64,000 bases of DNA from Moringa oleifera (lineage: Eukaryota > Streptophyta > Magnoliopsida > Brassicales > Moringaceae), in contig JAJFZO010000659.1 in the NCBI GenBank assembly GCA_021397835.1, positions 1,178,501 to 1,242,500 of the forward strand. The letters are read 5' to 3'. A program made the position numbers and the translations under genes. This document shows positions 10,401 to 46,472 of this stretch, piece after piece. The notes beneath the pieces were generated by a model. The model worked only from the letters and a program-made list of their open reading frames with translations. It searched no databases and was not told the origin of the DNA. The number at the start of each line of letters is the position of its first letter. Position 1 is the first letter of the stretch.

Positions 10401-11008
10401 CTAATGCAGTGGATACCCAATTTTGTTTAATCTCTTCCCTTCCCCTGATCTTGGATGTTTAGGGACATCATAAATCCTTTCTTCTGATGTCTTTCTAATG
10501 TTCTCCCCCTTGAAGGCCAGAGCCAGAGCTAGGCAATGGTGAGGCTGCAATATATCTAACTTGTCAAAAGGAACTATCAATGCTTCCAGATTTGAGCACC
10601 ATATATATATATATATGAGAAGAAGACACGATTAACCTTGTCTCTCCTTGTATTTACTTCTAGCACTCTGCTTAGTGGAAGATGGTAGGTGTAACATATT
10701 TAGGCTTGGACGTGTTTTGTTAATGTTTTGTTGAGTGGACTTGATGAGTGCATAGGTGCCATCACTTGTATCTAATACCCTTCCAGTGTGTTTGATTTAC
10801 AAAATTTAATTAGGATGAAATACAATTGCGTTCAAATTGAATAAAAAATTCAATTTTTGTGTTTTATTGTGCATTAGCAACTATATTTATCTCTATGTGT
10901 GTGTGTGTGTGTATTAGCAATTATATATATCTGTGTGCATTAGCAATTGGATACAAATTTCAATTTTTGTGTTTCATTATGCATTAGCAACTATATTTAT
11001 ACATTAGC

Positions 11009-11062
<54 letters not shown>

Positions 11063-11218
11063 TGTGTGTGTGTGTGTATTAGCATATATATATATATATA
11101 TATATATTGTGTGTGTGTGTGTATTAGCAATTATATATATCTGTGTGCATTAGCAATTGGATACAAATTTCAATTTTTGTGTTTCATTATGCATTAGCAA
11201 CTATATTTATACATTAGC

Positions 11219-11272
<54 letters not shown>

Positions 11273-12906: not shown

Positions 12907-13004
12907 GGAAATCGCAGCAATTTTTGAGTTACTGTCCCACTCGCTGCCAAAAGAAGGTGGGTACACAAAAGAGTAAGGAACTCACAGCACTTTTTGAGTT
13001 ACTG
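12865..13004 (+). repeat. 70-bp tandem duplication spanning the stop codon
   Basis: Two adjacent 70-bp units (12865-12934 and 12935-13004) differ at four positions by eye. The first unit holds the last 13 codons, the TAA stop and the start of the 3' untranslated region. The second repeats all of this downstream. Translation stops in the first copy, so the second copy is untranslated and the protein is unaffected. Confidence 0.95.
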
Positions 13005-19810: not shown

Positions 19811-19926
19811 TATACAACTAAAACTTATATTCTACTTTACAAAGGAAGGTTTAACATCAGTTACAACATATTATAATCAACTTAAGAGCATAGTTAATGG
19901 CTTAGCCATAACAGGTAACATAGTAT
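19811..19926 (+). pseudogene. Ty1/copia gag, part 2 (116-bp island between two insertions)
   Basis: One frame is open throughout: IQLKLIFYFTKEGLTSV, then TTYYNQLKSIVNGLAITGN. These match the mid-gag K..L..L.KG...V..Y...LK.IVD.LA..G pattern of plant copia elements. It continues the frame of 14547-14778 directly after the chromodomain element, and is continued at 40525 after the next insertion. The last five bases, AGTAT (19922-19926), are the left target duplication of the 20.6-kb element. Confidence 0.88.
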
Positions 19927-20148
19927 TATCGATACCCAAATTTTGCCTTAAATGACAAATCTAGAGTAAAAGTGCTATTATTGCCCTATAGCTAGTATTT
20001 TCTATCACTCTAGGAAAAGGTACGTAAAAAGGGCCTGACAATCGAAAAAATGGATTTTTTTTAAGAGAAACTCGATGAACTTGGATGAGTTATATCTGTG
20101 GTCCTCTTGAATTGCCACTAAAGTACTTTTCCTTCAATAGCATTTTTT

Positions 20149-20320
20149 AAGGTCAAGAATTAACTCAAGGTCAAGAGTTAATCCAAGGTCAAGAGTTAAC
20201 TCAAGGTCCAGGAGCTAATCTAAGGTTGAAAGTTAACTTAAGGTCGGGAGCTAATCCAAGGTCAGTGGCTAAAGGTTAAGGGTTAATCCAAGGTCGAGAG
20301 TTAACTCAAGGTTAGGAATT
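20149..20320 (+). repeat. 18-bp minisatellite in the 5' LTR
   Basis: About nine degenerate units of the form CTCAAGGTCAAGAGTTAA follow head to tail, with alternating GAGTTAA and GAGCTAA ends. The equivalent array is present in the 3' LTR. Confidence 0.9.
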
Positions 20321-20332
20321 TACCTAGATTAA

Positions 20333-20905
20333 GGAACACTTGGAAGACCTACTATAACTTTCACATTTAAGATTCAATTAAAGTTATTCAAGTGGAGTTC
20401 GAAACCTAAAGCAAAACACTACAAATGCTGCGTTGGGGTTGAGTGAAGATTCTATAAACTTGAAAGGTTTACCTTGATCCTAATTTATATAACATTCAGA
20501 TGCTCTACTACAATATTTTAATAGAGGAACACTGATACGATCTATCATAACTTTCACATTAAGATCCAACTGAAATGATTTAAATGGTGTTAGAAAGCTA
20601 AGGAAAAGGATCACAAATTTTATGTTGGGTCGATGAAGATTCTGTAAACTTGAAGGGTCTATCTTGATCTGATGCTACATAACATTCAAACTCTCTATTG
20701 TAGTATTTTCACCAAGAAACACCTAAAATATTTGTCATAACTTCCACATCTGAAATCAAATTGATGCGATTCAAGTGGCATTAGAAAGATAGTATAAAGG
20801 GTTATAAATGTTATATTGAGGCCAAATGGAGATTATGAATACATCAAGGTTTTACCATTGTCCGAATATGCATGATGCTGAGATAGAACGACTAGTGAAC
20901 CTACT
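20333..20905 (+). repeat. ~190-bp tandem array, three units, in the 5' LTR
   Basis: Units start at 20333, 20526 and 20716. Each begins with GGAACAC-like sequence, then ATAACTTTCACAT, GATCCAATTGAAGTGATTCAA-like and ACCTTGATC blocks. A partial unit follows at about 20920. The matching array in the 3' LTR has four full units. Confidence 0.9.
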
Positions 20906-22581
20906 GTAGTAATTTCAGCGAAACTTCTTTTTCTAAAATCTGACAAATGGTGATTCAAATGGTGTTACAAAGACAAGAGATAAGACTATGACTTTTTTTT
21001 GTTAAAAGAGAGAGTAAATTCAAAACATATTGGCAAGCAAAAGCAACTGACATGTCATGTCGTCATTAAAAGGCACTATTGCTAATAAGGCAGTGCTCTA
21101 CTTTTGAAAAAACGAAGACTAATGACATGGTAGGCGTCAGCAGCAGAGCCACTGATATGACACATCTCATTGGGTAAGCTAACATCGTTAGACAAGCTGA
21201 TGAGTTGACATTATTAGGCAAGTTGATGTAGCATGATGTTTAGCATACGCACTAGCGTTCTCTACAACACAATGACGCTTAATTCTCCACCAAATTGATT
21301 AAAAATTTAAATCAAAAATTGCACAGAGGAGAATAAGATGATGAAGTGTACTGTATACTCCTCAAATTACAAAGATTAAGTAAAAACTTTAAAGAATTAG
21401 ATAATGCTTGAGCTACCTAGATGAAGATTAAAGGAAGTAAAGGTGGTTTCCCACTCAGATAAGGCCAATGAGTGTGGAAATGAAGTCAAAATCAATGAAA
21501 ATAGCACGAACGAGTCTTAAGTAGCTTCACACAATAAGGCAAGGTGTGCTGAGCCTGAAGGTAGATGTTGCTTGGGCATACTGCACTTCGCTAAGCTGCC
21601 TGCCATTTGTTGCTAACCTGCCATTAAAATCCTACGAATACCTACTAGAGCTTGTTATTGTGAAAAATAAACATTCACATTCATGAATACATTCAAGTAG
21701 ATTTCAAATTCATAGATGCACATAAGTCTAAGAAACCACACACAAAGTTCTCTTAGGAAAAAAAAATTATCTTTGTAATTCTTTCAGTTTTTATTAGAGT
21801 TTTCGATGCTTTTAAAGAAAATTTTCATTGAAATCTTATATCTATTCATATAAAAGAATGAAAGAATACTAGAAAAAGTATGGAGGACTGTAAGAGGTAT
21901 TTAAGCAAATCCCTTAAACTTATTTACTGTAGCACATTTGTTTTATTGAATAAAATTGCTTGAGTTGAGTTAATTATGATTAGATTTTTGTTAAGTTATA
22001 TGTTTTGATCTATTTAATGTTCTAGCATATAGCTAAATCATGTTATAGAAATAGAAAATATTTTTATATTAGAATTTTTTTATAAAAATATATTTTATTT
22101 TGTGACAAAAAATATTACATATATGATTTCTAACCCTTATTTAGAGAAAAAAAAATAGATGTAAGAAAGTGTAAATCGTTCTCTTCTCCTTAAAAAATAT
22201 TTTGATACATCGAGATAGAGTAAGTATGAAGACCTGAGTACTTTGATCAAAATACTTAAAATTAATTTGCAGGAAAAGAAATTAAAATGGTAATAGTTAT
22301 TAGGCATTTTAAGGTGTAATCCTTTTCCAAGCGCAACTGACTCCTGGACTCGAAATCTTAACTTGTTTTTAATATATTAGCTTTACTTTAAGATGACAAC
22401 CATCACATCTAAAAAGATTGGTGGTGATCCAAGCTTTTTCTCATTCTACGAGTTTTCTCAATCAAGCTCCAATCATGGTTGGCTTTATTTATCAAAGCCA
22501 AAAAGAATTTTTTAAAAGAAAAATAATTTTCTCATAATAAGGAAAGCCTTTCACTTGGGAAAAAAATCTTGTTGTGACAGC

Positions 22582-22600
22582 TGACGACTCCACTAGGATA
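22582..22600 (+). other. Primer binding site of the composite element
   Basis: Two bases after the LTR, TGACGACTCCACTAGGATA matches the site beginning TGGCGACTCC that many plant Tat-type elements use. The same motif, diverged, follows two other LTRs in this window (51040 on + and 54898 on -). The tRNA species was not checked. Confidence 0.8.
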
Positions 22601-23157
22601 ATAAGAGTCAGGCCAAAATTTTGATTTCTTTCATGGTTTATATTTATACTTTATTGCCTTAATTTCTTGCTTGCTATGTTCCATTTGTTTTAATAATTGC
22701 TCATAGCATAGTACACATCGTAAAGCATAACATATGCTCTAAACCTGAGCTTCATCCTTTGACAGAAATATGTGTAGCTACGCTTCTAATAGGAACATCT
22801 CCTCCATAAAGTTGGTGAAATATTTCATTCAGATTGAACCTAAAGCATATTGATCTCGATTGTTATTCGCCGTCGTGATAATAATTTTGTCTTAGAAAAC
22901 CATCATTAGTTTGATGAGGGGAATCTGGGAACCTTTAAAAGTCGATCTTCCCTTGCATAACCAATGCATGTGTTTGACCCAATGTAGATCCATGCTTAGG
23001 GTTAGAGATTGTAAACCTAACTAGGATACATCTCAAATATACTTGGTATATTGCTATATTGCTTATCATATAACATGAAATAAATTAAAACATATATTTC
23101 AAAAGCTTGATCATCAAAAGAATATAACATTCATTCAAAAGTTATATCATAAAATAA
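22601..23157 (+). other. Untranslated leader of the composite element
   Basis: This gene-free 5' leader lies between the primer binding site and the first gag-like ATG. It contains a block (about 22900-22990) that resembles the leaders of the Tat-type elements at 51.4 and 54.4 kb. Confidence 0.6.
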
Positions 23158-25160
23158 TATGGAAGATTATAATACCAAGATAGAGAGGATCCAAGCTACT
23201 CAGGGTAAGATAGACTACGCCAAATTAAAATGCAGACTTAAATGTTGCAAAATTACATGGATCTCTAGAATTTGATAGCAAAACAATTTCAAGAGATGAT
23301 GGAATTACTTATGAAAGGAAAGATGACTGAGAAAGAGGTGTCGCAATTAAGAAAATCTTTCACCTTAAAAGAGAAACAAAAAGGACATGAACTTTATTTC
23401 CAAACCTTTGGGTTTAATGTACTAAGCCTCCTCGAAGAATGTGGCTAATGTAAACAACTAGCGTACAAAACAAAAGCTACATAAACAAAAGGTGCTCATT
23501 AGGCAAATGCCGTGCACATATTCGAAGTTATTACCCTAACTCATGGAACAAAAATTCGTGAAGCCATTTTAATCCCTATACCTAAAATGGTATGACAGAA
23601 GTGCTACATATAACAATCATAATGGGGCAGTAGGGCATGATATAAAAAATTACTTAGCATTGAAATAGAAAGTACAATCACTTGCGAATAATGGAGTTTT
23701 GGGCTTTAAGGCCATAAATAGCCCCAATGTTGCTAACAATTTATTTCTTATCCATTAAGTGTATCAAACAAATATGATAGCCAAAGTTTTGGAGGTCAAA
23801 GAAAATAGAAAGCCATTGGGCCTGGGCTACGAGCCAATGAAAGCCAACATGAAAAAAGTAGAGACGAAGAAGAAAAGAAAAGGAATAAACAGATCTAATC
23901 GACATTAGTCACTGTCCATAACATTTTTAGTTTGCTAGGTTATATGATGCAAGCGAGTCTTTGATAACAAATTCCCATACTGGAGATAACAAACCTATGA
24001 TAGTTTTAGAATAGGAACAAATGAAAGTTGTTCTCAATTAAGAATTTGTCCAAAAAAAGCAAATTGAGATTAACTAATTGAAATATACATACAACTTCAT
24101 ACAAGTTCTTGCCATATCAATAAAAGTTGTCGTATTTTTTTGCTTTGAGTGAAATTAGACATACTCTTGTCTAGGGATTTTGATAATGAAAACTGTAATA
24201 AGGATAGCTTTGAATATTTTCAAGAGGATGACTCTATTCTAAAGATGTGAAAAAAAATGTTTGAATTTTCCTAAGAGATTCTCATGCAAATGGAGCAAGA
24301 AAAAAGAGAGTAAAAAGCCTCCATAAGGAAGAAATCGAAATGGTCAAGCTGGAAAATGGAAAAGGATAAAAAAGTTTAAAATAAGTGCCACAAAATTGAA
24401 GAAAGAATCAATTAAGTCATTGCAAGGATATGCTTATAAGGAAGCATAGTAGAACACCCCTTGAGCAAAAAAAAAAAAAAAACATTTGAGAAGAAATAAG
24501 AAAAAGTCATCCCGATAGATCAAGAATCATAGACATTCTTGATAGTTAAAAATTACATTATAGAAACCATTAGTGCATTAGGTTGAATTGCTTCTTGATG
24601 GACTACCAAAATCAGAGAAAAAGAAGAATGTGAATAATTTTCTTGTTAACTTGGTTAGTTTAATGTAGCAGGAGAAAAGTGAATCATGATATCTATAAGA
24701 TGTCAATTACTACCATTTGGAAAAAAACAAAGGGGAAAGAAGAAAAAAACTCAAGTGATTAAAGCTACAATTCAAAAGATAACCAGAAACTATAAGGGTT
24801 GGCACAAGGTATTGCCACTAGCTTTAGTAATTACTTGGGGCAAACTTCATTATGCAGAAGTAGTATTACCAATTGGAATATAGATTTTATCCCCAAAAAT
24901 ACTCATGCAATGGTAGCTCAAAAAAGTGAAATGGATAGAAAAAATGGTATAAACAACAAAATCTAATTGATGAAAAAAGATTGAAAAACATTTGCCATGG
25001 GTAGTTGTACTAGAGTAGGATGAAAAAAGTATACTAAACAATGGGTTCCATAACTACTTAGCTTCAATATCAGACAAATCCAATAAAGAAAGGACATCTT
25101 CATCATTTCAATCACAGGAAAATAAGTGTATTAAATGATCATCATTAAGAAAAACCAGAT
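23158..25160 (+). pseudogene. Tat-lineage gag-pol remnant with internal deletion
   Basis: A gag-like start MEDYNTKIERIQATQGKID lies at 23158. At 23586-23670 is the decayed nucleocapsid motif NNHNGAVGHDIKNYLALK followed by VQSLANNGVLGFKA and NSPNV, typical of Tat gag. Its zinc-binding cysteines are replaced by tyrosine. A protease/RT-linker-like acidic stretch (FEYFQEDDSILKM) is near 24210. Reverse transcriptase is essentially absent. Integrase C-terminal sequence follows at about 24750-24883 (IKATIQKITRNYKGWHKVLP, then AEVVLPIGI), continuing with EKHLPWVV-like remnants to about 25060. The jump from linker to integrase implies a large internal deletion. Confidence 0.75.
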
Positions 25161-25261
25161 AGAATTGATGCTTAATAGTGAGGGAGTGAACCCTTGTTTC
25201 CTTTTTTTGACCTATATACCTAATGTTCTTATCAGAAAAAAAAAACGACATTCATAGCAGT

Positions 25262-26455
25262 TGATAGAATGCATAATAGTCATATATATTATTATATTTT
25301 CTCATGTTTTTGTTGGTTGTAAATGATTAAATCTTGGATTTTAACTATGTTTTATATTTAGTAGGGTGGATTAAAGAACTCAATTAGAATGCATTCAAAT
25401 TTATTTTTTGAAGATGAAAAGTTGGATTCCAAAAGATGTGGATGAACTAGAAGATGCCTTTAGGTAAGACGTTAACACACCTAACAACATTAGAATTTTA
25501 GTGAGCCATGACTTTATCTTTTATTTAAAAAGTAGTTGTAAAAAATTTATCTTTATCCTTATTTATCTTGAAGAGTAATAGTTAAGATAGGATACTATGT
25601 TTAGGAATTATTATATAAAAAGGAGGTAGTTGCTTCAAAGGAAGATCTAGGGTTTATTTCCTACTTTCTTCTTTTCTTAGATCTTTTTCTTTTCATGGAT
25701 TACTGAACATCTATTCCAGTTAAAGGATAATCAAGGGTTTGATTCTTCAAGAATTGTGAGATCCAACTGATTTTATTTGTTTTTTTATTTCTTCATTGTT
25801 TATATATTTTTTGTGCTTGTTGAAAATATTATTTTGGTTGATTGTAACAAAAAGAGCTATTTGTTTAATCATCAAAATAATAAATAACTAATTAAAATTT
25901 TAAATTATAATTATTTAAATATTCTTATATAAGTGGTAATAATGTAATTGATTAAAAAAAAGGTTTTCAATTTATGTTATGAAGATATATAGTTTAGTTT
26001 AAATAAACCTACATATGTGTTTATTAGATCGGATTAGTAGTTTCTCTAATTCTTAATGCTACTAGTAAATTAAATCCTAAGATAGTATCTAAGGTTATTT
26101 ATTGATGAGAAAAATAATCAAAGATCGTTGCTTGATTATCAAAGAAGTAAGAAGAAATAGGTTGTTAGGTCGTACCAACAACCATAACTAATTCAGTGAA
26201 GATTAAAAGATTTATCTTTGCATCAATGATCAATTGTTAAATCAAACTTGAAATTATTCCTTTGACTAGATACTTCATTATATTGTTTTTTATTTATTTT
26301 AATTTTATTACTTTTAATTATTCAAACCATTATTTATTTTATTTTATTTTATGAAAAACAAATCTAACTAGTCTTTGTGGAAATGACCTTGCTCATCTAT
26401 ACTACAATTTAATTTTTTGAGCAGAAATTTAATTTGTTGGTCTCGATAACAAACA
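25262..26455 (+). repeat. LTR of a nested Athila-like element
   Basis: It begins TGATAGAATGCATAATAG and ends TCTCGATAACAAACA, directly before a primer binding site. It is about 1.2 kb and AT-rich. Near the end it contains TCTTTGTGGAAATGACCTTG, a block conserved in U5 of such elements. No second copy of this LTR is found in the window, so the right-hand LTR was lost. Confidence 0.75.
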
Positions 26456-26460
26456 TTTTT

Positions 26461-26478
26461 TGGCATCGCTGTCGAGGA
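26461..26478 (+). other. Primer binding site, + arm
   Basis: TGGCATCGCTGTCGAGGA is a decayed form of TGGCGCCGTTGCCGGGGA, the tRNA-Asp-type site of Athila-like plant elements. The mirror copy lies at 33370-33387 on the - strand. Confidence 0.85.
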
Positions 26479-26599
26479 TTCATTTTAATTAGATTTATTT
26501 TAATATTTCATTCTTCTCATGCAGGTGATCTAGTTCCACATGATCTCGAGATTGAGAAGACAAAAAAAAAAGAATAAAAAAGAAAGCTAAATTACAAAA

Positions 26600-29500
26600 T
26601 TAACAATAATCTTCACCTTCATCTTCTAGATTGAATTTAGCACACAAGTTAGCTGACTCATTTGGGGATTCTGAAATAGGACAAGACATGGCTAATGAAG
26701 AGGGAACTTTGAGGCAATTGGCTGCACTAGAAGTAAATCAGCAACCACTCTGCATTCAATATCTAATTTTACAAGCAAATTTTGAGTTAAAGTTTGGTTT
26801 GATCCATTTACCCCTTAAGTTTCATGGCTTTTAGAATGAAGATCCTTACAAGTATCTGAAGGAATTCCATGTGGTATGCTCAAGCCCAAAATCACAATGA
26901 GTGACTAAAAAGGAGATCAAATTACATACTTTTCCATTCTTATTGACCAAAAGAGCAAAGGATTGGTTGTTTTATTTACATTTTGGTTTTGTGATCACAT
27001 GAATAGAGATCATAAAACTATTTCTTGATAAAAATTTTCTTGTTTCACGAGCTACTAGCATCAAAAGGGAAATATGTCGGATAAAGTAGAAAGATGTTGA
27101 AACCCTTCATGAGTATTTGAAAAGATTTAAACACTGTGTGCAAGCTGTCCTTAACATGGGATTTTCAAAAAGCTGCTTATTCAATATTTTTATGAAAGAT
27201 TACTACCTATGGAAAGAAGGATGATGGATGCAGCTAGTGGAGGTGCTATAGTGAATAAAACTCCTCGTGAGGCTAGAGATTTGATTTCTACCATGGCTAT
27301 TAACTCACAATAATTCTAATTCAGAAAAGATACATATCTAAAAATGATTAATGAGGCAAATATATCTTCCCTTGAAAATCAACTAGCTAATCTAACTTCT
27401 CTTCTTCAATAATTGGCTGTAAGAAATATACAACAAGTTAAAGCTAGTGAGATTTATGCTGCTACTTGCCATCCAATTGACATGTGCCCTACACTTCAAG
27501 ATGATCCTTATGAGCATGCTAATATAGTTGAAGGATTTTCAAGTCACTATAAAGGAAATATGATCCTTACCTAAATATATACAACCAAGGATGGAGGGAT
27601 CATCCCATTTTCAGTTATGGAGCAAGACCTCAACTTCAGTGTAGACAACCGACTCTACCACTACAACCCTATTCAAATTCAGGTATGTCTCTTGAAGAAA
27701 TTGTTAAATGCTTGCATCTAACACACAAAAATTTAAGTAGGAGACAAGAACAAGTATTAAAAAGTTGAAGGATCAAGTATGTTAATTAGCATCTTTAATG
27801 AACATATTAGAATATTAAGGAAAATTGCCTTCACAGATTATTCTTAACCTAAAACAAAATGCTAGTGCAATTATCTTAAAAAGTGGAACTTAGTGAAAAG
27901 AACCTGGCAAGACCACTAGAGGATGCATCCTAAGAGTAAAGACTGAAAAAGCAGTAATTCCTCAACTAGAGCTTGATCAGCCTATGGGACCCAATAAAGA
28001 GCAACTAAAAACTTTCATGGTCATTCATCCGTTTCCCTCTAGATTATCTAAATCTAAGAAGAAGGACGAGGAAGAAAAGGAGATTTTTGATACCTTTCGC
28101 AAGGTCGAGGTAAATATTATTTTACTTGATACAATTAAACAGGTACCTCGATATGCCAAATTTCTCAAGGAGTTATGCACCAATAAGAGAAAATTGAAAG
28201 GTATTGAATTTTTAAGTATGAGGGAAAATTTTTCAACTATTTTTCAAAAAAAATTACCTCCTAATTATAAGGACCCAAGTATGTTTACTATTCCTTGCAA
28301 AGTTAGTAAGTTAGAATTGAAAAAGCGATGTTGGGTCTAGATGCTTCAATAAATGTCATGCCATTATCCATTTATTCATCTTTGAATGCTGGACCATTAA
28401 AAGAAACTAGTGTAATTATTCAACTTGTTGATAGATCTATTGTGTATCCCAACTGAGTTTTGGTGCAAGTCAACGGTTTAATTTTTCCTACTGATTTTTA
28501 TATGCTTAATATGGAGGAAGGAGATTCATCTAACTCATTAGTTTTCTTAGGAAGACCTTTCCTAAAAACATCCAAGACAAAAATTGATGTGTATGATGGT
28601 ATATTTACAATAGAATTTGATGGTGAAATTATTAAATTTAATATTTATAATGCCATGAGATATCCTAGTGATTTGTCTTTTGTTTTTGCTATAGACGTTA
28701 TTGAACCTTTAGCACAAAATTTTTTTGATTTCAGTAATGAAGATAAGTTAAAAGCTGTACTTAACAAGAGTTTAAGTTTTGGAAGATCACAGAAAATTTT
28801 GCAGAAGGTTACATTGGATTCTAACTTACAGGATACAATTCATGAATTTGAATCACGGTAACTTATAGGGTATGACTTTTCTTATGTTGATTTGCCTTTT
28901 TCTCACATAAAACTCTTTCTTTTTATTATACAAGCACAAATATCAGAGCTAAAACCCCTACCAGATCATTTAAAGTGTGCTCTTTTAGGAGAAAAAGAGG
29001 TGCTTCCAATTATAATCTTTAATAAACTTTCCATCTTAGAGGAAGAAAAATTGATTCGAGTACATAGAAAGTATAAAGAGCCATTAATTGGATCATAACC
29101 AACATTAAAGGATTGAATACTTCGACATGCGTGCATAGGATACTAAGATTGTAGACCATCCAGGCAACCTTAACACAGATTGAATCCACCTATAATGGAA
29201 GTGGTAAAGAAAGAGATCTTGAAATTTTTTGATGCAGGTATGATCTATCCAATTTTAGATAGCGAATGGATAAGTCCAATTCAAGTTGTTCCAAAGAAAA
29301 TAGGTATAATAACAATAGAAAATCCTAATGATGAGTTAATACTTACCCATGTTCAAAACGAATGAAGGGTATGTATAAATTATAGGAAGTTAAATGCATC
29401 AACTAGAAAAGATCATTTTCCTCTTCCATTTATTGATCAAATGCTTGAATGATTAACAGGTCATACTCATTATTGTTGTCTTGATGGTTCTTCAGGTTTT

Positions 29501-29970
29501 CATCAAATCCTTACTGCACTTGAAGATTAAGAAAAAACCATATTCACATGCCCGTCTGGTACTTTGGCATATCAACGCATGTAATTTGGACTTTGCAATG
29601 CTCCTATTACATTTTAGAGGTGTATGATTAGTATATTTTCTGATTATATATAGAACATCATAGAGGTGTTTATGAATGACTTTACAGTTTATGATGATTC
29701 TTTTGATGCATGTTTAACTAACATTACAAAAGTAATTAAATGATGCATAGCAAAGAACCTTGTTTTAAATTATGAAAAGTGTTACTTTATGGTTAATCAA
29801 GGTATTATTTTATTTTAGGACATGTTGTATCCTTTAAGAGAATTGAAGTTGATAATACGAAGGTAGAAATCATAAATTCTTTATCTTACTCTGCAAGTGT
29901 GCAGGATGTTCGCTTTTTTCTTGGACATGCAGGATTCTACCAACTATTTATCAAGGATTTTAAAGAGTGA
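26600..29970 (+). pseudogene. Athila-like gag, protease and reverse transcriptase, + arm
   Basis: gag: ANEEGTLRQLAALEVNQQPL (about 26690), then DPYKYLKEFHVVCSS (26840), RAKDWLFYLHFG (26955) and TLHEYLKRFKHCVQ (27100). Protease: MLDLGAS-like LDASINVMPLSIYSSLNAG (about 28335-28395), then EEGDSSNSLVFLGRPFLKTS (28512-28575) with GRPFL intact. Reverse transcriptase: MEVVKKEILKFFDAGMIYPI (29195), CINYRKLNASTRKDHFPLPF (29375) and CCLDGSSGFHQI (29470). The catalytic box is FMND instead of FMDD (Asn codon at 29675-29677) and an in-frame TGA is at 29741. The connection domain ends at GFYQLFIKDFK near 29970, where the inverted arm begins. RNase H and integrase are missing. Confidence 0.9.
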
Positions 29971-29980
29971 ATTTCTTGTA

Positions 29981-32900
29981 GATAAAGATTTTATAATTTT
30001 TATCTTAGCTTTATCAACTTTCAATTCTCTTAGAAGATACAACATGTCCTAGAATAATACCTTGATTAATCATAAAGTGACACTTTTCATAATTTAAAAC
30101 AAGGTTCATTTCTGTGTATCATTTAATTACTTTTGTAAGGTTAGTTAAACATGCATAAAAAAAATTACCATAGACCGTAAAGTCATTCATAAACACCTCT
30201 ATGATGCTCACTACATAATTAAAAAAATGTACTAACCACACACCTCTAAAATGTAACAAGAGCATTGCAAAGTCCAAATGGCATGCATCGATATAGAAAA
30301 GTCCCAAATGGGTTTGATCTTTAGGTGCAACACGGATTTAATGAAAACCCGAATAATCATTAAGACAAACAATAATGAGTATGACCTGCTAATTGTTCAA
30401 GCATTTGATCAATAAATGGAAGAGAAAAATGTTCTTTCTTAGTTGATGTATTTAACTTCCTATAATCTATACATACGCTATATCTGTTTGGAATACGAGT
30501 GGTATTAGCTCACCATCAGAATTTTCTATTATCGTTATAACTATTTTCTTTGGAATAACTTGAATTAGACTTACCCATTCACTATCTGAAATTGAATATA
30601 TCATACTTGCATCAAGAAGTTTCAAGATCTTTTTCTTTAGCACTTTCATCATAAGTGGATTCAATCTGTGTTAGGATTGTTTGGAGGGTTTACAATCTTC
30701 CTCTAATAGTATCCTAGGCACTCAAGTGGAAGGATTTAATCCCTTAATGTCAATTGTGGTCCAATCAATGGCCTCTTTATACTCTCTAAGTACTTGAATT
30801 AATTTTTTCCTTTAAAATAAAAAGTTTATTAGAGATTATGATTGGAAGAGTCTTTTTTCCTCTTGAAAAAGCATACTTTAAATGCTCTAATAGGGTTTTA
30901 GCTCTAATATTTATGCTTGTACAATAAAAGGAAGGATTTTTATGTGAGAAAAAGGCAAATCAACATAAGAAACATCATACCTCATAGGTTGCATTGATTC
31001 TAATTCATGAATTATATAGTGTAAGTCAGAATCCAATATAAACTTCTGCAAGATTTTTTATGATCTTCCAAAACTTTAACTCTTGTGAAGTGTAACTTCT
31101 AACTTATGTTCATTATTTAAATCAAGAATTTTCTATGCTAGACGTTCAATAATAGCCATAGCAAAAACAAAAGATAAATTACTAGGATATCATCATAAAT
31201 ATTAAATTTAATAATTTCACCATCAAATTTCATTATGAGTGTACCATCATGGGCATCAATTTTTATCTTGGATGTTTTTAGGAAAGGTATTCTTAAAAAA
31301 ATTAATGAGTTAGATGAATCATCTTCCTCCATATTAAGCATATAAAAAGTAGTAGGACAAATCTATCCATTGATTTGCACCAAAACATACTCTAAAACTT
31401 CCTCACGATACACGCTAGATCTATCAGTAAGTTGAATAATTACTCTAGTTTCTTTCAATGGTTCAGCATTTAAAGATGAATAAATGGATAATGGCATGAC
31501 ATTTGTTGAAGCATCTAGATCTAACATCGCTATTTCAATCCTAATATTACCAACTTTGCAAGGAATAGTAAAAATACCTAGGTCCTTACATTTAAGAGGT
31601 TTTTTTTTTTTTTTGAAGAACCGTCGAAACATTTTCCTCCATAGTTACAAATTCATTACCTTTTAATTTTCTCTAGTTAGTACATAACTTGGTGTGAAAT
31701 TTGGCATATCGACGTACTTGTTTAATTACATTAAGTAAAGGAATATTTACCTCAACGTTATGAAAGGTATCAAAAATCTTCTCTTTTTCCTCATTCTGCT
31801 TAGATTTAGATAATCTAAAGGTTTAAAAGGAGGAATTAGCATGGAAGTTCTTCGTTGCTCTCTTTTAGGTCCCTTAGGCTAATCAATTATGGTTCAGCAA
31901 CTACTTCTTTTTCAGACTTTTCTCTTGGGATGCATCCTTTAGTGGTCTTGCATGGTTCTTTTAACTTAGTTTTACTTCTTAAGATAATTGCACTAGCTTT
32001 CTATTTGGGGTTGACAATAGTTTCTAAAGGTAATTTTTCTTGAGATTTTAATCTGTGCATTGAAGATGCTAGTTGACCTAGTTGATCCTTGAACTTTTTA
32101 ATACTTGTTCTTATCTCCTGCTTAAATTGTTGTGTGTTAGACGTAAGTGATTTAACAATTTCTTCAAGGGACATACCTGAATTTGAATAAGGTTTTAGGG
32201 GTAAAGCTGGCTGTCTAGATTAAAATTAAGGTCTTGCTTCATAATTGAAATTGGCATTTCCTCCATCCTGGGTTATATGTATTTGGGTAAAGATCATATC
32301 TCCTTTATAGTAGACTTGAAAATCCTCTAACTGTATTAGCGTGCTCATAAGGATCATTTTGAAGTGGAGGACACATGTCAATTGGATGGTCAGTAGTAGC
32401 ACAAATCCCACAAGCTTTAACTTGTTGCATATTTCTTGTAGCCAATTGTTGAACAAGATAAGTTAGATTGGCTATTTGATTTTCAAAGGAAGATATATTT
32501 GCCTCATTAATCTTTTTTAGAGATATATCTTGTCTGAATTTTGAATTGTTGTGAGCTAACAGCCATGGTGAAAACCAAATCTCTAGCCTCACGAGTAGTT
32601 TTATTCACTATACACTAGCTGCATCCATCATCCTTCTTTCCATGAGTAGTAATCTTTCATAAAAATATTGAATGAGAAGTTTTTTAGAAATCCCATGTTA
32701 AGCATAACTTGTGTATAGTTGTTTAAATCTTTCCCAATACTCATGAAAGGTTTCAAAGTCTTTTTGCTTTATCCCATATATTCCCTTCTGATGCTAACAG
32801 CTTATAAATAAAGGAAAAATTTATCAAGAAATAGTTTTACCATCTTTATCGATGTGATCACAGAACCAAAAGGTAAATAAAACAACCAATCCTTTGTTTT

Positions 32901-33388
32901 TTTGGACAATAAGAATGGAAAAGCATGCAATTTGATCTCCTCTTCACTCACTTGTTACGGTTTTAGGCTTGAGCATACCACATGGAATCCTTCAGATGCT
33001 TGTGAGGATCTTCATTCTCAAAGCTGTAAAATTTAAAGAGCAAATGGATCAAACTAGACTTTAACTTAAAATCTGCCTGCAAAATTGGATATTGAATGCA
33101 GAGTGGCTGCTGATTTCTTTTGGTGCAGTTAATTACCTTAAAGTTCTCTCTTCATTAGCCATGTCTTGTTCTATTTCAAAATCACCAAATGAGTCAACTA
33201 ACTCACATGTTAAATTCAATTTAAGAGATGAACGTAAAGATTCTTGTTGATTTCATAATTTAGTTTCGTTGTTGATTCTTTTTCCTATCTTCTCAATCTC
33301 AAGATTATATGGAGCTAGATCACCTGCATAAGAAGAATAAGGCGTTAAAATAAATCTAATTAAAACCAATCCCCAGCAATAGTACCAA
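29981..33388 (-). pseudogene. Athila-like gag, protease and reverse transcriptase, inverted arm
   Basis: Read on the - strand this repeats 26461-29880: primer binding site (33387-33370), gag (RDISLKKINEANISSFENQI at 32530-32470 and TCVLHFKMILMSTLI-type sequence), protease (LDLDASTNVMPLSIYSSLNA near 31525; EEDDSSNSLIFLRIPFLKTS near 31320) and reverse transcriptase (VLKKKILKLLDASMIYSISD near 30650; IIEVFMNDFTVYG near 30195). It shares with the + arm the FMND box (Asn codon at 30185-30187) and the following TGA (30121-30119). It ends within the connection domain at 29981. A T-rich expansion breaks it near 31600. Its LTR is missing except for about 12 bp of U5 at 33399-33412. Confidence 0.9.
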
Positions 33389-33412
33389 AAATTATTGGTT
33401 GTCGAGACCAAC

Positions 33413-33868
33413 GGTAGCCTTTCTTTCTTGATAAGTTAAATATTATTTTTGAGAATTCTTGATTGACCAGTTGTTTAAAACAAATGTGATAACATATTGT
33501 ACATAACTTTGTAAAATAAGATAAATTATAAAAAAAACCAAGAGGAAAAGACACTCTTTGAGAGACATAATAGGGAAAAAAAATAAAGAGAATGTATGGG
33601 GAATACCTCTCTTGATAGACATAGATTTAACTTGACATTTAAACCCAGCAATCATATTTTCAAGGAAGGATATTGAAAGTTGAAATGATCCATCATTTCT
33701 CGAAAAAAAAAATAAAGAAAAAAAAAAGAGAAAACAACTTTGATTGACTGGTTATATACTTTGATGACCATGCAAAAAAATAAATAAATAAAACAATAAA
33801 AAACAAAAAACAATATTTTCAAATCTAAACATTGAAGGGAACCTAAATGGGAGGTAAAACATTTTTCA
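33413..33868. other. Unassigned DNA between the inverted arm and the DRM fragment
   Basis: This is low-complexity AT-rich sequence with A-rich runs at 33570-33590, 33700-33735 and 33775-33810. No retroelement domain is recognised. ORFs of 64-107 codons on the - strand have no family features. Confidence 0.5.
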
Positions 33869-33869
33869 T

Positions 33870-35140
33870 TGCCAAACATCAAAAAGATTTTGACAGAAGG
33901 GGGCAATGCAGATTTGATACTTGGAACTTTTCTTAAGTAGTTGATGAGCTTACCAAAAGAATCGTCCAACTCCAAGATGGTTGATCATTGTATTAGAATG
34001 GGATATAGTTTTAAAAGTAATTGAGGAAAATGGAGAAGAAAACATAAATTCAATGTCAAAAATTCTCCTAACACACTTAGTTATTGGAAAATCTCCTTTA
34101 GTATAACAAAATTGTTCTTCAAATCACTTCTCTTTAGATTAAAAAGGTAGCTTCCTAGATGATTTCTCAAATATAGAAAGTTGTTTAGCTAGCAAGGAAA
34201 TCACCAATCCTACTCCTAATGAGGATAAGAAGTTGCTATCCTTAGCAAATATAGGGTATAAGGTGAAAGAAATGAAAATAGCTAGGAAAAGATGAGGTCC
34301 AGACCCTATAATTACAGAATTGACTAATTTTAAATGTGCCACTCAAGTGGAAAAGGCTGTCGATGCATTTGTGAAAGAAGTTCTTATCAAAGAAAAGCTG
34401 AAGGCTAAGGACTTCGTTACACATAAGAAGAAAAGATTTTATTAAGGAGAAGTAGAGGGAGTTTTAGAAGAAATTCTTGAACGAATATGATAAGATAACT
34501 CATCTCACAAATCCAATAATAGGTTTTAGAGTTCCTATTGAACAAGGCTATATAGAAACACTTCAAAAAGCTACTATTTGGCCCTTATACTTTTATTATG
34601 AAAATGTGGCAGTTGATCCTAAGGGAATTTGGGACACTATTTCATGTTTCTTATATGATATGGAACTAGAATTTGTTAATTCTAAATACTTCTTTATTGC
34701 CAAGAAAGAGAGGTTGTGTTCACAATCTTCCAATTCGGAGCAGGTTTCCTTTTGTTTCAATTCCTCCATTCACCATACATGAAACTATTCCTTTAACAAA
34801 TAATAGTGGCCCTCATGGAATACAAATTTAATTACTTATAGATTTGTCTTAGGAGTGGGAAATTGACTAAGAGAATCCGCAAGTCTCTTGATGACTATGA
34901 CTATTATCCACCATTAAATGTCTAAAAATGTCTCAGATGAATGCACAAAGTGAAATTTATTAGGTTCGAAGGAATAAGGTTGCTTCACTTGAGCTCGATG
35001 AAATAGAAATGCTTTTAGATTCCCAAGAAGCCACATAAAGAGTGGTGGAATTAGCAAGATTGATAGGTTAAACCGCTTGGTAACTTATTTCAAGTTGATA
35101 CTATGGCTTACAATATCTCAATATTGAAAGACTTTGTTTG
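33870..35140 (+). pseudogene. Captured DRM-type DNA methyltransferase fragment (UBA domains plus partial catalytic domain)
   Basis: Successive frames match plant DRM1/DRM2 de novo methyltransferases in order. UBA-like segments: GGNADLILGTFLK (about 33900), SSNSKMVDHCIRMGY (33963), then IEENGEENINSMSKILLTHL (34022), and EDKKLLSLANIGYKVKEM (about 34220) with GPDPIITELTNF (34295). Linker and catalytic part: LTNPIIGFRVPIE (34503), FYYENVAVDPKGIWDTIS (about 34590-34645; motif VI ENV), FLYDMELEFVNSKYF (34650), HNLPIRSRFPFVSIPPFTIH (34722-34780), KLTKRIRKSLDDYDYYPPLN (34861), NKVASLELDEIEMLL (34977) and LGNLFQVDTMAYNISILKDF (about 35080; motif X, GNS changed to GNL). Motifs I to IV, including the catalytic cysteine, are absent. 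The ~1.25 kb has no visible introns, so it looks like a retrocopy. Many stops and frameshifts make it non-functional. Confidence 0.88.
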
Positions 35141-36230
35141 CAAAAAGATTCAATGGGAAATGATATTCGCTAGGACAAATTCTTTTACTCTTTACATAGC
35201 TCAAAAACCATCTCAAAATGAATAAGAAAATATTTAAAGTTCAGTGGCATCAGATAAAGATCTTCCACAAAGGAAGTAAAAAATGGGAACATAACCATGG
35301 ATAACTGAGTAGAATGTTTATACAGCCTAAAGAATAGATACAGTGGATAACATCCTACATCTTATATGAGCTTATTTTGTTTAAAACAGGAAACTTTTGT
35401 GTCTTTGCTCAAAACATGAGGAAGTATCAAGTATACATCGCTAGCACTTAAGGCAGGTGGGTGTGAAACAATATGTGCTAATCTTATGCAAATTGGTCAA
35501 AGGAACATTATGAAGTGCAATCAATAGATAAAATAAAAAAAATCAAACAAGCTTGAGAAACACTCTATATAATAAAAAGAAAATTGGTGAATAGCAATAT
35601 AATCACATATATCATGAGGGGAAAAAGTAAAATTTAGGGTTCAGCCCCACCAATATGGTTGGATATGGTCAAAACTTCTGTTATAAAATCAAGATAGGTG
35701 GAAGTTAAATGTTTTTAGAAGGATAAAGAATCTTGAGAAACCAAAAGATCCAAGTGATAACAAAAATTATTAATCTTGAGATACAAAAAGAAGCCCTATT
35801 AAGGAATTAAAAAACTTTTACATACAAAGGTCAAAATCAGGGAATGACCAAAAAATGTGAAGCATAACTCAAGAAATGGATGAGTTAAGGAACGAAAGGA
35901 ACATATTCATGAATGAAAGCACAAAGATACATAACAAATTGAAAAGAAAAGCTGAGGCCTTACATAAAATAGAACGAGAGAATAAAAGACTTCAAACGAA
36001 TATCTCTGCAAATCAAGTCAACCATCAAGATCAATCAAAAGAAACGAAGCTGTATCAATAACAATGAGAAGAAACATGTACACTTAAGATGAATTAGTTG
36101 ATAAGGATGATGGATCAAGACTGAAAAAAAAAAAAAAAGCCAAAATGAATGCTAAAGTATGGAGGAATAGAGCTAAGGAAACCAAGAAACATATAAATAA
36201 ACGACGAAAAATCTTGATACCTTATGGATG
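35141..36230 (+). pseudogene. Coiled-coil coding remnant of unknown origin
   Basis: No family is recognised. The clearest open stretch (35876-36061) begins MDELRNERNIFMNESTKIHN and is rich in Lys, Glu, Arg and Asn with heptad-like spacing. A continuation near 36140-36220 (KMNAKVWRNRAKETKKHINK) lies after an A-run. It could be a retrotransposon coiled-coil ORF or another captured host segment. Upstream, 35141-35870 holds only broken frames. Confidence 0.4.
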
Positions 36231-36239
36231 CAAGTATAA

Positions 36240-37170
36240 TTAAAAACATAAATAGCCATGGATATATACAGAGAGATTTATAAGCATCAAGAAGATCTCT
36301 GGCAATCGACAGCCAAATCGTTATACATTAAAGAGATTATGATGAAAGATGTGACATTTCAAAATATCATTCTTTACAATGTCCAATGTCGAGACGATTT
36401 CGATAAGAGACACCATTCGTAAAGCATGTAAATGAAGAATTATGACAACTAAATCATTATACATTAAAAAGATCCCAATGGACAATGTGAATGTCAAAAT
36501 GTTATTCTTTACAATGCCGAATATTCAGGCGATTTTTATAGAATTCGTAAGGTACATCGAGGAAGAATTTTGACAATGAAATCATCATACATCGAAGAGA
36601 TTCCTATGGAAGACGTGATATTTGAAGATATCATTCTTTACAATGTGGAATGCCAATGCAACTTCGTTAGGAGACAACATTCATAGGGCATGTCAAGGAA
36701 GAATTTAGACTGCTAAATCATCATACATTGAAGAGATTTTCGATGGAAGATGTGACATTTCTAAAATATCATTCTTTATGATATTGAAAGTTAAGGCAAT
36801 TTCAAAATGAGAGACAACATTTAGTTAAGGAAGAATCATGATAGCTAAATCGTTGTACATCAAAGAGATTTCGATAGAATACATGACATTTCAAATTTCA
36901 TTTTTTTATGATATTGAATGCCGGGGCGATTCTGACAAGAGTTACTTTCATCGAGCATGTCGAGGAAGAATTTGACAGCCGAATCATCATACATCGAGGA
37001 GATTTCGATGGAAGATATGACATTTCAAAATGTATTTCCTTATAATGTTGAATGTCAAGGCGATTCCAATAGGAGAAAAAGTTTATGGGGCATGTCGAGG
37101 AAGAATTTTGATGCTAAATCATTGCACATTGAGGAGATTCTGATGCAAAATGAGGCCTTTTAGAAACATT
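36240..37170 (+). repeat. ~133-bp tandem array in the 3' untranslated region of the composite element
   Basis: Seven units are marked by AAATCATCATACATCGAAGAG-like starts at 36315, 36451, 36579, 36715, 36847, 36981 and 37116 (spacing 128-136 bp). Each unit also carries a 'GACATTTCAAAATATCATTC' block and an 'ACATGTCGAGGAAGAATTT' block. Further isolated GAGGAAGAATTT blocks continue to about 37455. Arrays in this position are known in Tat/Ogre-type elements. Confidence 0.92.
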
Positions 37171-37661
37171 TACACATGTCAAACATCAAGGGCAATTTTG
37201 ATGGGAGACAAAAACCTTATTTCATCAAATGTCATAAGAGAATTACAAAAAGAGATGAAAACCATCTAATGTTGAGGAAGAATTCCGATAATAACTACTA
37301 AAATTCAAAGTTTCCTTATCATCGAAGAACGAGGAAGAATTTCATCATGAGATTAAAAAAGGATCCCTTGTCTAATGGTAAAGAAGAATTTTAATAGAAA
37401 ACGTTAGGATCAAGAATTTTCCAATGATAAGTAATGTGTTTGTTAAAAGACAAGGAAGAATTTCATCTTAGATAATAAATAATCATTATCAAACCAATTT
37501 TATCAAACAAACTTCATTTTTTGTTGATTTCTTGTATGATTGACTAAAAACAAAAAATAATAATAAATAAAGAATTCTAAAGAGAAATTTGAGAGGGAAA
37601 AGAGCTACGAGGACAAAATTTGTCATCTCTTGGTCATTATTTTATTTTTGACTTTTAAAAC

Positions 37662-37678
37662 CAAAAAAAGAAGGCAGC
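37662..37678 (+). other. Putative polypurine tract of the composite element
   Basis: AAAAAAAGAAGGCAGC directly precedes the 3' LTR start. It is purine-rich with two interruptions, in the position where plus-strand priming occurs. Confidence 0.6.
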
Positions 37679-37900
37679 TATAGAAATCTAAATTTTGTCC
37701 TCACGATAAATCTGGAGCAAAAGTGCCATTATCATCGTACAACCAGTATAATTTCTATCACTGTAGCAAAAGGTGCATAAAAAGGGTCTAATGATGGAGA
37801 ATTTGGATTTTTTTTAAAAAAAAAAAACTTAATGAACTTGCTGAGTACATTTGAGTCCTTTTGAACTGCCACTACAGTAGTCTACCTTCAGCAGCATCCT

Positions 37901-38135
37901 TCAAGATTGAAAGTTAAGCTAAGTTTGGCACTTAACTCAAGGTTGAGAGTTAACTCAACGTCGAGAGCTAATCCAAGGTTAGGGGTTAACTCAAGGTTGG
38001 GGCCTAACTCAATATTGGAGCTAATTTAAGATCAAAAAGTTAACTCAGGGTGAGGGTTAACTCAAGGCTAGGGCCTAATAGTTAAATCAAGGTTGAGAGC
38101 TAAGCTAAGGTCAGGTTTCCTCAAGGTCAAAAATT
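37901..38135 (+). repeat. 18-bp minisatellite in the 3' LTR
   Basis: About twelve degenerate copies of the CTCAAGGTTGAGAGTTAA-type unit lie in the same LTR position as 20149-20320. The array is longer and more irregular here. Confidence 0.88.
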
Positions 38136-38147
38136 TACCTAGATCAA

Positions 38148-38905
38148 GGAACATTTGGATGACTTACCCATAACTTTTACGTCTAGGATCCAATTGAAGT
38201 GATTCAAGTGGCATTGGAAAGCTAAGGGAAATGGGCACAAATTTCGTATTGAGGTTGAATAAAGATTCTGTAAACTCAAAAGGTTTACCTTGATCCAAAC
38301 CTACATAACATTGAGACACGCTATTGTAGTATCTTCACAAAGGCAAACACTGGAATATTTATCATAACTTCTATGTCCGAGATCCAATTAAAGTGATTCA
38401 AGTGGTATTCGAAAGCTAAGGGAAAGGGCTACAAATTTTAAGCTGGACTTGAGTGAATATTTCATAAATCCAAAGGGATCAAAACCTACATAACATTGAG
38501 ATACGCTATTATAGTATCTTTACAAAGGCAAACATGGAAGATCTATCATAACTTCTATGTCTGAGATCCAATTAAAGTGATTTGAGTAGCATTCGAAAGC
38601 TAAGGGAAAAGGCTACAAATTTTAAGTTGGAGTTGAGTGAATATTCCATAAACCCAGAGGGTCTACATTAATTCGAATCTACTCAACATTTAAACACTTT
38701 GTTGCAATATTTTCACAAAGGAATCCCCTCAAGATCTATCATAACTTCCATTTTCAAGATCCAATTGAAGTGATTCAAGTGGCATTGAAAAGCTAAGATA
38801 AAGAGTACATCAAGTTTTATCATTATCTAAAGATGCATGATGCTAAGATAAAACAACCAGTAAACCAATTGTAGTAATTTAAACGTAATTTCCTTTTTTG
38901 AGATC
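38148..38905 (+). repeat. ~190-bp tandem array, four units, in the 3' LTR
   Basis: Units start at 38148, 38342, 38527 and 38720, with the same internal blocks as the three-unit array of the 5' LTR. The second and third units are the most alike, sharing ATAACTTCTATGTC and AATATTTCATAAA-like blocks, which suggests the extra unit arose there. Confidence 0.9.
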
Positions 38906-40524
38906 TGATTATAGTGATTCAAATGGTATTGTAAAGGTAAAAGAATCTTTTTTGTTGAAAGAAAGAGCAAATTTAGAACATACTGGCAAGCAGAGGTGAC
39001 TCACATGGCACATCATCATTAAAAGCACTATTATTGATGAGCAGTGCTTAATTTATCAAAAGATAAAGACTAATGGTGTGGCAAGGTGCCGAAAATGGAG
39101 CCACTAATGTGACATGTCATCATTAGGTGAGATGATGTCATTGGACAAGCTAATGAGCTACCATGGTTGGGCAAGCTGATGTAGCATACATAGTAATGCA
39201 CCTTATAACCCAATGATGCCCGATGCTTTACCAAATTGATTAAAATTTGATTTAAAAATTACATAAAGGTGGACAAAATGATGAAGCAAACTATGAGCCT
39301 CCTCAAATTACAAAGATCCACCAAAAAATTGGAATTGGATGACATAGTAATGGCTCATTTGGAGAAACTCTTCTTGAGCTATCCAGATGAATATTAGAAA
39401 AAATGAAGGTGGTTTCCCACTGAAACAAGGCTAAAGAGTGTGAAAATGAAGTTAAAACCAATGCAAACAGCAAGAAATAGCCTTGAATGGGCTTCACACA
39501 GTGAGGAGGTAGAGTGTGTCGAGCCTGAAGTTAGAAAGTTACCTGGGCGCACTGCACTTTCCTGATTTATCTACCATTTGCTGCTGGCTTATAAATACCT
39601 GTCAAAGCTTGTAGTTATGAAGAGCGAACATTCATATTCATGAATATATCTAAGAAACTTTAAAATTCACAGACGCATACAAGTCATAAAAGCCACATAT
39701 AGTTCTCTTTGAAAACAAAACTTTCTGTAATTCTTAGTTTTCATTAGAGTTTTTATTGCGTTTCAAGAAAATTTCCATTGAAATCTTGCATCCATTCATA
39801 TAGAAAAAAGGAGGAATACTACAAAAAGTTAGGAAACTTCAAGAGGTATTCAAGAAACTCCATTGAACTCATTTATTATAGCACATTCATTTTATTGAAT
39901 AAAATTGCTTAAGTTAAGTTAATTATCATTAGATTCTTGTTAAGTTATATATTTTGATCTATTTAATGTTCTAACATATAGCTACATCATGTTATAGAAA
40001 TAAAAAATATTTTTGTATTTGAATTTTTCTTTAGAAAAATTTATTTTCTTTTATAACAAAAAATATTACATATATGATTTTTTCCCCTTATTTTGGGGAA
40101 GAAAAGAAGTAAGCAAGCACAAACCACTCTTTTTTCCCTAAAAAATATTTTGGTACATTGGGATAGAGTAAGTGTGAAGTCTTGTGTACTTTAACCAAAG
40201 TACCTTAAAATTAATTTGCAAGAAAGGAAATCAAAGTGATACCAATTATTAGGTATCTTGGGAGTGCTAATCTTTCTCCAAGCATAATCGACTCTAGACC
40301 TCGAATCTCAACCTTTTTTTACCAATTAGCCTTACTTTAAGGTGGTGGTCAATCACACCCAAAATGATTGGTTACGACTTCAATTTTTTTTTTTAACACT
40401 GTGGGTTTTTCCAATTGAAATCTTGGTTGTAATAAATGGCTTTATTAATCAAAATCAAAGAGAATTTTTCTCACAATCGAAGAGGCCTTTCGCATGGGAA
40501 AAAAATCTAATTATGATAAGTATC

Positions 40525-46322: not shown

Positions 46323-46472
46323 TATTTCATCAAGAAATGGTGTTGATAGTTAAAATGTTAAGTCATTTACTCATTTTTCATCAATAATAAGAATCAATAT
46401 TTCATCAAGAAATGGCATTGATAGTTAAAATGTTAAGTCACTTGGTCACTTTTCATCAATAATAAGAATCAA
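46323..46472. repeat. 75-bp tandem duplication
   Basis: Two adjacent units (46323-46397 and 46398-46472) share TATTTCATCAAGAAATGG, GATAGTTAAAATGTTAAGTC and TTTTCATCAATAATAAGAAT, with a handful of mismatches. Confidence 0.85.

Follow-up and report, generated by a model that had tools for sequence, protein, structure and literature searches.

The window (the whole 64,000-nucleotide stretch of Moringa oleifera DNA analysed here) carries on its + strand, at 33895..35154, a 1.26-kb stretch of DRM-like sequence lying between the two LTRs of a retrotransposon. These limits come from matching the DNA, exon by exon, to the DRM gene of the same assembly. The element is built as follows.

19922..19926, unstranded: left target-site duplication, AGTAT
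19927..22579, + strand: 5' LTR, 2.65 kb, exact ends set by eye
22580..25255, + strand: left internal region, with no Pfam domain in the three forward frames of 22514-25203
25256..33412, unstranded: later insertion, mostly a 7-kb palindrome at 26436-33412
33413..33894, + strand: left internal region, continued, common to DRM-less relatives up to the junction
33895..35154, + strand: DRM fragment of spliced origin, in the same sense as the element, spanning donor exons E3-E9 plus ~60 nt at the start of E10
35155..36306, + strand: remains of an element gene of DUF7745 type, attached behind DRM in six of the 11 copies
36308..37165, + strand: diverged repeats of ~133 bp, from self-matches
37663..37678, + strand: purine-rich tract, taken by eye as the polypurine tract, adjoining the 3' LTR
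37679..40518, + strand: 3' LTR, 2.84 kb, exact ends set by eye
40519..40523, unstranded: right target-site duplication, AGTAT, 5 bp

The element carrying the fragment

Because the purine-rich tract sits just before the 3' LTR, we place the element in + orientation with DRM in sense. No primer-binding site was identified in the window element, and TRF at its default score reported no tandem repeats for 36308-37165. The earlier note had described an element of 20.6 kb; LTRs and a target-site duplication do bound that span, but 25256-33412 is a later insertion and the element proper measures ~12.4 kb. The insertion is absent from this place in seven of the ten other copies (C566b, C516a, C80, C87, C516c, C516d and C85), while C516b has a different gap of ~3.8 kb there, and C665 and C572 do not extend that far. 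The arms of the palindrome are 82% identical and hold decayed gypsy-like gag/protease/RT sequence (named by eye), and Pfam gave no match for its two minus-strand open pieces. It stops ~480 bp upstream of the DRM fragment and, if transcribed, could form a very long hairpin. Pfam scans of the three forward frames found no gag or pol domain in window 22514-25203, 33870-35140, 35155-36306 and 36307-37678, nor in the left region of C566b, all of these being decayed copies. Judged by these scans, the element may be non-autonomous (LARD-like).

The LTRs differ from each other by a K2P distance of 0.29 over their unique part and 0.34 over the whole (aligned slightly past the ends). At borrowed substitution rates of 0.7-1.3e-8 per site per year this gives the element an age of roughly 11-24 million years, an estimate that is rough because methylated cytosines decay. 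Elsewhere in the window, 10857-11479, 12864-13003 and 46323-46472 are short direct tandem duplications, with spacings and identities of 210 bp and 99%, 70 bp and 94%, and 75 bp and 92%, respectively.

Identity of the fragment and its likely donor gene

DRM is a host enzyme of RNA-directed DNA methylation, which helps to silence mobile elements. The window copy has a single long open piece of 104 aa (34468-34782), which resembles the catalytic domains of plant DRM enzymes of known structure, with a best E value of 1.2e-18; six distinct PDB sequences were matched, all DRM-type, the remaining five below 1e-16. Pfam recognised no DRM-type or UBA domain either in this open piece or in the three forward frames of 33870-35140, where it gave a sub-threshold MauJ match only, and the naming of the window copy as DRM consequently rests on the PDB match and the donor gene. 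Read by eye, the fragment starts near the close of UBA1, runs through UBA2, UBA3 and the linker, and goes on into the catalytic domain as far as ...VDTVAYHLSVLKNLFPGGIN; the similarity ends right before SLFSGIGG, motif I. The PDB match and the exon-by-exon alignment bear out the earlier note's reading of a DRM fragment. Its DRM interval, 33870..35140, is refined to 33895..35154, the first 25 positions (33870-33894) being element sequence outside the fragment. The window copy has 12 in-frame stops in 409 readable codons, in addition to indels.

In the DRM gene on contig C1 (L009/L010), ten coding exons were delimited by eye, while a first coding exon was not located; the ten are separated by GT-AG introns and give an intact open frame of 635 codons plus stop. 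The protein matches the DRM structure 4onj, from tobacco, at E=4.5e-207 over 352 residues, and among its named relatives Pistacia vera DRM1 ranks first, with 79% identity. DNA search found one intron-bearing DRM locus in the assembly (279.5 Mb, 669 contigs), and this gene is the likely donor of the fragment. Comparison of exon borders with the donor shows that seven of its introns, of 89 to 1210 bp, are absent from the copies, and the spliced-mRNA origin proposed in the earlier note is upheld.

Two similar pairs of UBA exons of equal lengths (100 and 47 nt) lie at L009 4918-5148 and 5386-5621 in the donor, an internal exon-pair duplication. The captured fragment starts at, or very near, the border between the two exons of the first pair. 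Alternative splicing was considered as the reason for this start at an exon border, and junction microhomology explains it equally well.

Copies across the assembly

Searched at the DNA level, the assembly containing the window gave 16 rows (14 of 14 first-look candidates scored), made up of the window itself, ten further copies, one of which has an extra row, and four exon rows of the C1 gene. At least 11 element copies therefore hold the DRM fragment. The left junction and its flank are common to nine of the 11; C665 starts past this junction, and C572 has other sequence there. These shared borders establish that the fragment is carried by the element and has one common insertion site, and the ten further copies mean that the element was amplified with its cargo. 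LTR-like direct repeats were seen in two of the ten other copies, within the stretches examined. In the tree, a clade of nine copies is set apart from the gene, C87 and C572 with a support of 1.0.

Four DRM-bearing copies lie on the 2.26-Mb contig C516, at 0.89, 1.21, 1.70 and 2.05 Mb. Two of these, C516b and C516d, are 5% apart and have the same end point inside a DRM exon, which suggests either segmental duplication or a truncated mobile sublineage.

The DUF7745 segment behind DRM

In six copies (the window, C566b, C516a, C80, C665 and C516c) the DRM 3' end is joined to the segment found at 35155-36306 in the window. Its matches (40 of 63 candidates scored; at least 48 rows) fall outside the DRM copies in 41 of 48 rows, by which the remnant belongs to a wider repeat family. 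Pfam places the segment in a DUF7745 reading frame in L038 (E=2.9e-11) and L037 (E=4.5e-7), and did not recognise DUF7745 in the window copy or in L031. We found no paper naming DUF7745 in the open-access literature. The segment has no place at the C87 join and no match in C572, while three copies, C516b, C516d and C85, stop short of the right join and are uninformative on this point. Because C87 lacks the segment at its join, we infer that the DUF7745 join came after the DRM capture.

The same segment had been considered, by eye, as a second captured gene of RNA-directed DNA methylation encoding an SGS3/IDN2-like coiled coil, and the DUF7745 matches in L038 and L037 rule this out. No XS or XH domain was reported by Pfam in three frames each of the window, L031 and L037 and in one frame of L038; the six zf-XS matches of the host all lie elsewhere.

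Junctions and probable route of capture

Eight further loci were taken for comparison. The DRM-less relatives L032, L034 and L035 match the element up to the left junction and then run into its repeat region, while L033 and L036 leave the element before the junction and are uninformative there. Both joins are carried by C87, in which the left part of the element ends and the right part starts at positions 774 and 783 of L034, 782 and 781 of L035, and 807 and 853 of L032. C87 thus leaves and rejoins the element at nearly the same place, so that the insertion cost the element hardly any of its own sequence, if any. By eye, ~4 nt at the left join and ~3 nt at the right could belong to either partner; these microhomologies are short and are read in copies that have diverged by 15-25%, and it is possible that they reflect chance or another type of join. 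A possible ~7-nt repeat of element sequence at both joins, blurred by divergence, might be a small target-site duplication. No poly(A) is found at the DRM 3' end in the seven copies that reach the right junction.

On this evidence, the LTR retrotransposon very probably captured part of a spliced DRM mRNA by template switching during reverse transcription and then amplified it as passive cargo. At a short microhomology the polymerase would have switched from the element RNA to the DRM mRNA, copied this from the last exon back to the UBA1/UBA2 region, and then resumed on the element RNA very close to where it had left. Subsequent transposition of the chimera gave rise to at least 11 copies; one sublineage gained frameshifts, and six of its copies carry the remnant of a DUF7745 gene behind DRM. 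The sense orientation of DRM fits template switching, since that route requires it, and a review describes abnormal template switching as one way in which LTR elements take up foreign sequence (PMC13317346).

LINE-type retroposition, or the repair of a break with DRM cDNA, might instead have put the fragment into an element copy that was later amplified. The clean insertion is in keeping with such an event, as is the few-nucleotide repeat of element sequence that may flank the fragment, and L1-like retrocopies are documented in dicots, some of them without poly(A) or a target-site duplication (PMC4838847). Nevertheless, the missing poly(A), a 3' end that falls inside coding sequence before motif I, and the possible microhomology at both joins make this an unlikely route when set against template switching.

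Methylation-type decay and possible action on the donor

Relative to the donor, transitions have occurred at rates of 0.42 at CG sites (of 247), 0.41 at CHG sites (of 683), 0.21 at CHH sites (of 3225) and 0.042 at A/T sites (of 5509), as pooled over nine of the 11 copies (C80 and C516d were left out as near-duplicates of C516a and C516b), with no outgroup to polarise the changes, no masking where C572 aligns poorly at its ends, and no control region. An excess of CG and CHG transitions is the usual mark of methylated DNA; the fragment has decayed in this manner. Because transitions concentrate at CG and CHG sites, the host has probably silenced the element copies.

A separate possibility is that the fragment acted on its donor at the level of RNA: it would have given small RNAs, or else transcripts able to pair with DRM RNA, and so have lowered DRM activity during the burst. 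The likely donor encodes an enzyme of RNA-directed DNA methylation, and when it was captured the fragment must have been almost identical to the gene. In maize, gene fragments captured by elements are described as siRNA reservoirs for related elements and for donor genes (PMC13317346). Such an action nevertheless seems quite improbable. The donor frame is intact, and the CpG observed/expected ratio of the captured exons (0.27) falls between those of the non-captured exons (0.20 and 0.33), so that the gene shows no clear CpG footprint. Few exact matches are left: between 4 and 29 exact 21-mers per copy are common to copy and donor coding sequence, with longest exact runs of 24 to 39 nt across copies, and the window copy, now 18% diverged from the DRM gene, shares 14 such 21-mers, all within a single 34-nt run at 34219-34252. 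In maize, capturing elements mapped fewer siRNAs than relatives without captured fragments, according to a second review (PMC8616336). The full sequence of events, in which element transcripts soon after capture, when fragment and gene were nearly identical, would have lowered DRM expression by pairing with its RNA or through small RNAs, and RNA-directed methylation would have been weakened to the benefit of the burst, must be regarded as a long shot. If true, it would mean that a retrotransposon briefly turned the gene of a host silencing enzyme against the host with no protein needed.

Coding constraint

All 11 copies have in-frame stops. A 14-bp frameshifting deletion is common to nine of them (all except C87 and C572), and a 2-bp deletion is common to seven of those nine, that is, to every one reaching the site. 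Changes at the three codon positions, counted over all 11 copies with the foreign ends of five masked, are spread evenly on terminal branches (284/259/256, P=0.41) and on internal ones (163/154/133, P=0.21). On the stem of the nine-copy clade there are 6 synonymous, 15 nonsynonymous and 2 stop changes, scored at sites with data in at least four of the nine members and at least one of C87 and C572 and with a base common to at least 80%; these counts are near the random expectation of 26, 70 and 4% under the assumed mutation weights. Changes common to the copies as against the gene (13 synonymous, 14 nonsynonymous and 2 stop) do show a synonymous excess, which may reflect constraint on the gene's own branch or, alternatively, a brief constrained phase right after capture. 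Divergence of the window from other copies is K 0.235-0.291 over the DRM part (ten copies) and 0.247-0.281 over the left element region (seven copies with more than 2000 aligned bases each); for C87 and C572 the left-region values are 0.271 over 411 bases and 0.173 over 112 bases. The DRM part has diverged as the flanking element DNA has.

A coding role is rejected by the common frameshifts, the flat codon-position changes and the near-random stem counts; the fragment has evolved without coding constraint, and in the copies seen a protein role finds no support. The earlier note had held that the fragment cannot be an enzyme, and we agree: similarity stops before motif I, and the frame is broken in the lineage of nine of the 11 copies. 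The cargo does include the UBA region together with half a catalytic domain, and by eye the reading frame of DRM continues into that of DUF7745 across the right join. This might be taken to mean that the fragment was retained for a protein product, either a shortened DRM with dominant-negative action or a DRM-DUF7745 fusion. Given that the main lineage shares both deletions, that codon positions change alike, and that two of the 23 stem changes are stops, this reading is barely credible and, for the copies seen, largely refuted. An ordinary DRM pseudogene or genomic DRM locus lying by chance between two LTRs is virtually impossible: nothing but sequence similarity speaks for it, and the fragment is intronless, enclosed by LTRs with a target-site duplication, and present in 11 copies of which nine have the same flank and junction.

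Comparison with known systems

The record of this one capture is unusually complete, comprising an intact donor, DRM-less relatives and a copy with both joins, as well as later derivatives in which a second fragment has been added, and the copies are numerous enough for selection tests. With cargo from the gene of an enzyme of RNA-directed DNA methylation, it also offers a specific case in which to study whether silencing is influenced by the pieces of silencing genes that elements capture. Part of the answer comes from the coding analysis, which lends no support to a protein role in these copies. We found no report of DRM as retrotransposon cargo in the open-access literature.

Retrotransposons that encode DNA methyltransferases are described in the dinoflagellate Symbiodinium and the charophyte Klebsormidium, the latter being LTR Gypsy elements (PMC5890265), and, like the present element, they have cytosine methyltransferase sequence inside a retrotransposon. 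Their domain, however, is in the element coding region, is of Dnmt3 or Symbiodinium-specific type, and in Klebsormidium has its key residues conserved (PMC5890265), whereas the window element has half a domain that is DRM-type, frameshifted and neutral, with no complete set of catalytic motifs. Among DNA transposons, MULEs have taken up the plant mobile domain from MAIL1/MAIN-like silencing genes, and the authors of that study speculate on an anti-silencing use (PMC5418596). Both cases join a mobile element to sequence from a host gene family acting in silencing, but the MULE case concerns a DNA transposon, a conserved coding domain and another silencing pathway, and the window an mRNA fragment without constraint (PMC5418596).

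Processed pseudogenes, or L1-like retrocopies, of dicots resemble the DRM fragment as intronless copies of host mRNA, and differ in that the fragment lacks poly(A), is truncated at both ends and was multiplied by an LTR element (PMC4838847). Maize Helitrons, Pack-MULEs and Sireviruses similarly carry donor-gene fragments that possibly interact with the donor via siRNAs; small RNAs and methylation have been measured for them (PMC13317346, PMC8616336).

Capture of host-gene segments by LTR elements is exemplified by Bs1 of maize and by many cases in rice and sorghum (PMC13317346, PMC7264820). Truncated host-gene segments inside an LTR element are common to Bs1 and the element described here (PMC13317346), and the window copy has further features of the Bs1 type in its two LTRs and target-site duplication, its intronless host-gene cargo, and the multiplication of that cargo with the element. 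Unlike Bs1 (PMC13317346), the window element has kept no chimeric coding frame, and its cargo is DRM, from the very pathway that silences such elements. Capture of the Bs1 type is thus already known from this literature, and what differs here is the DRM cargo and its neutral decay.
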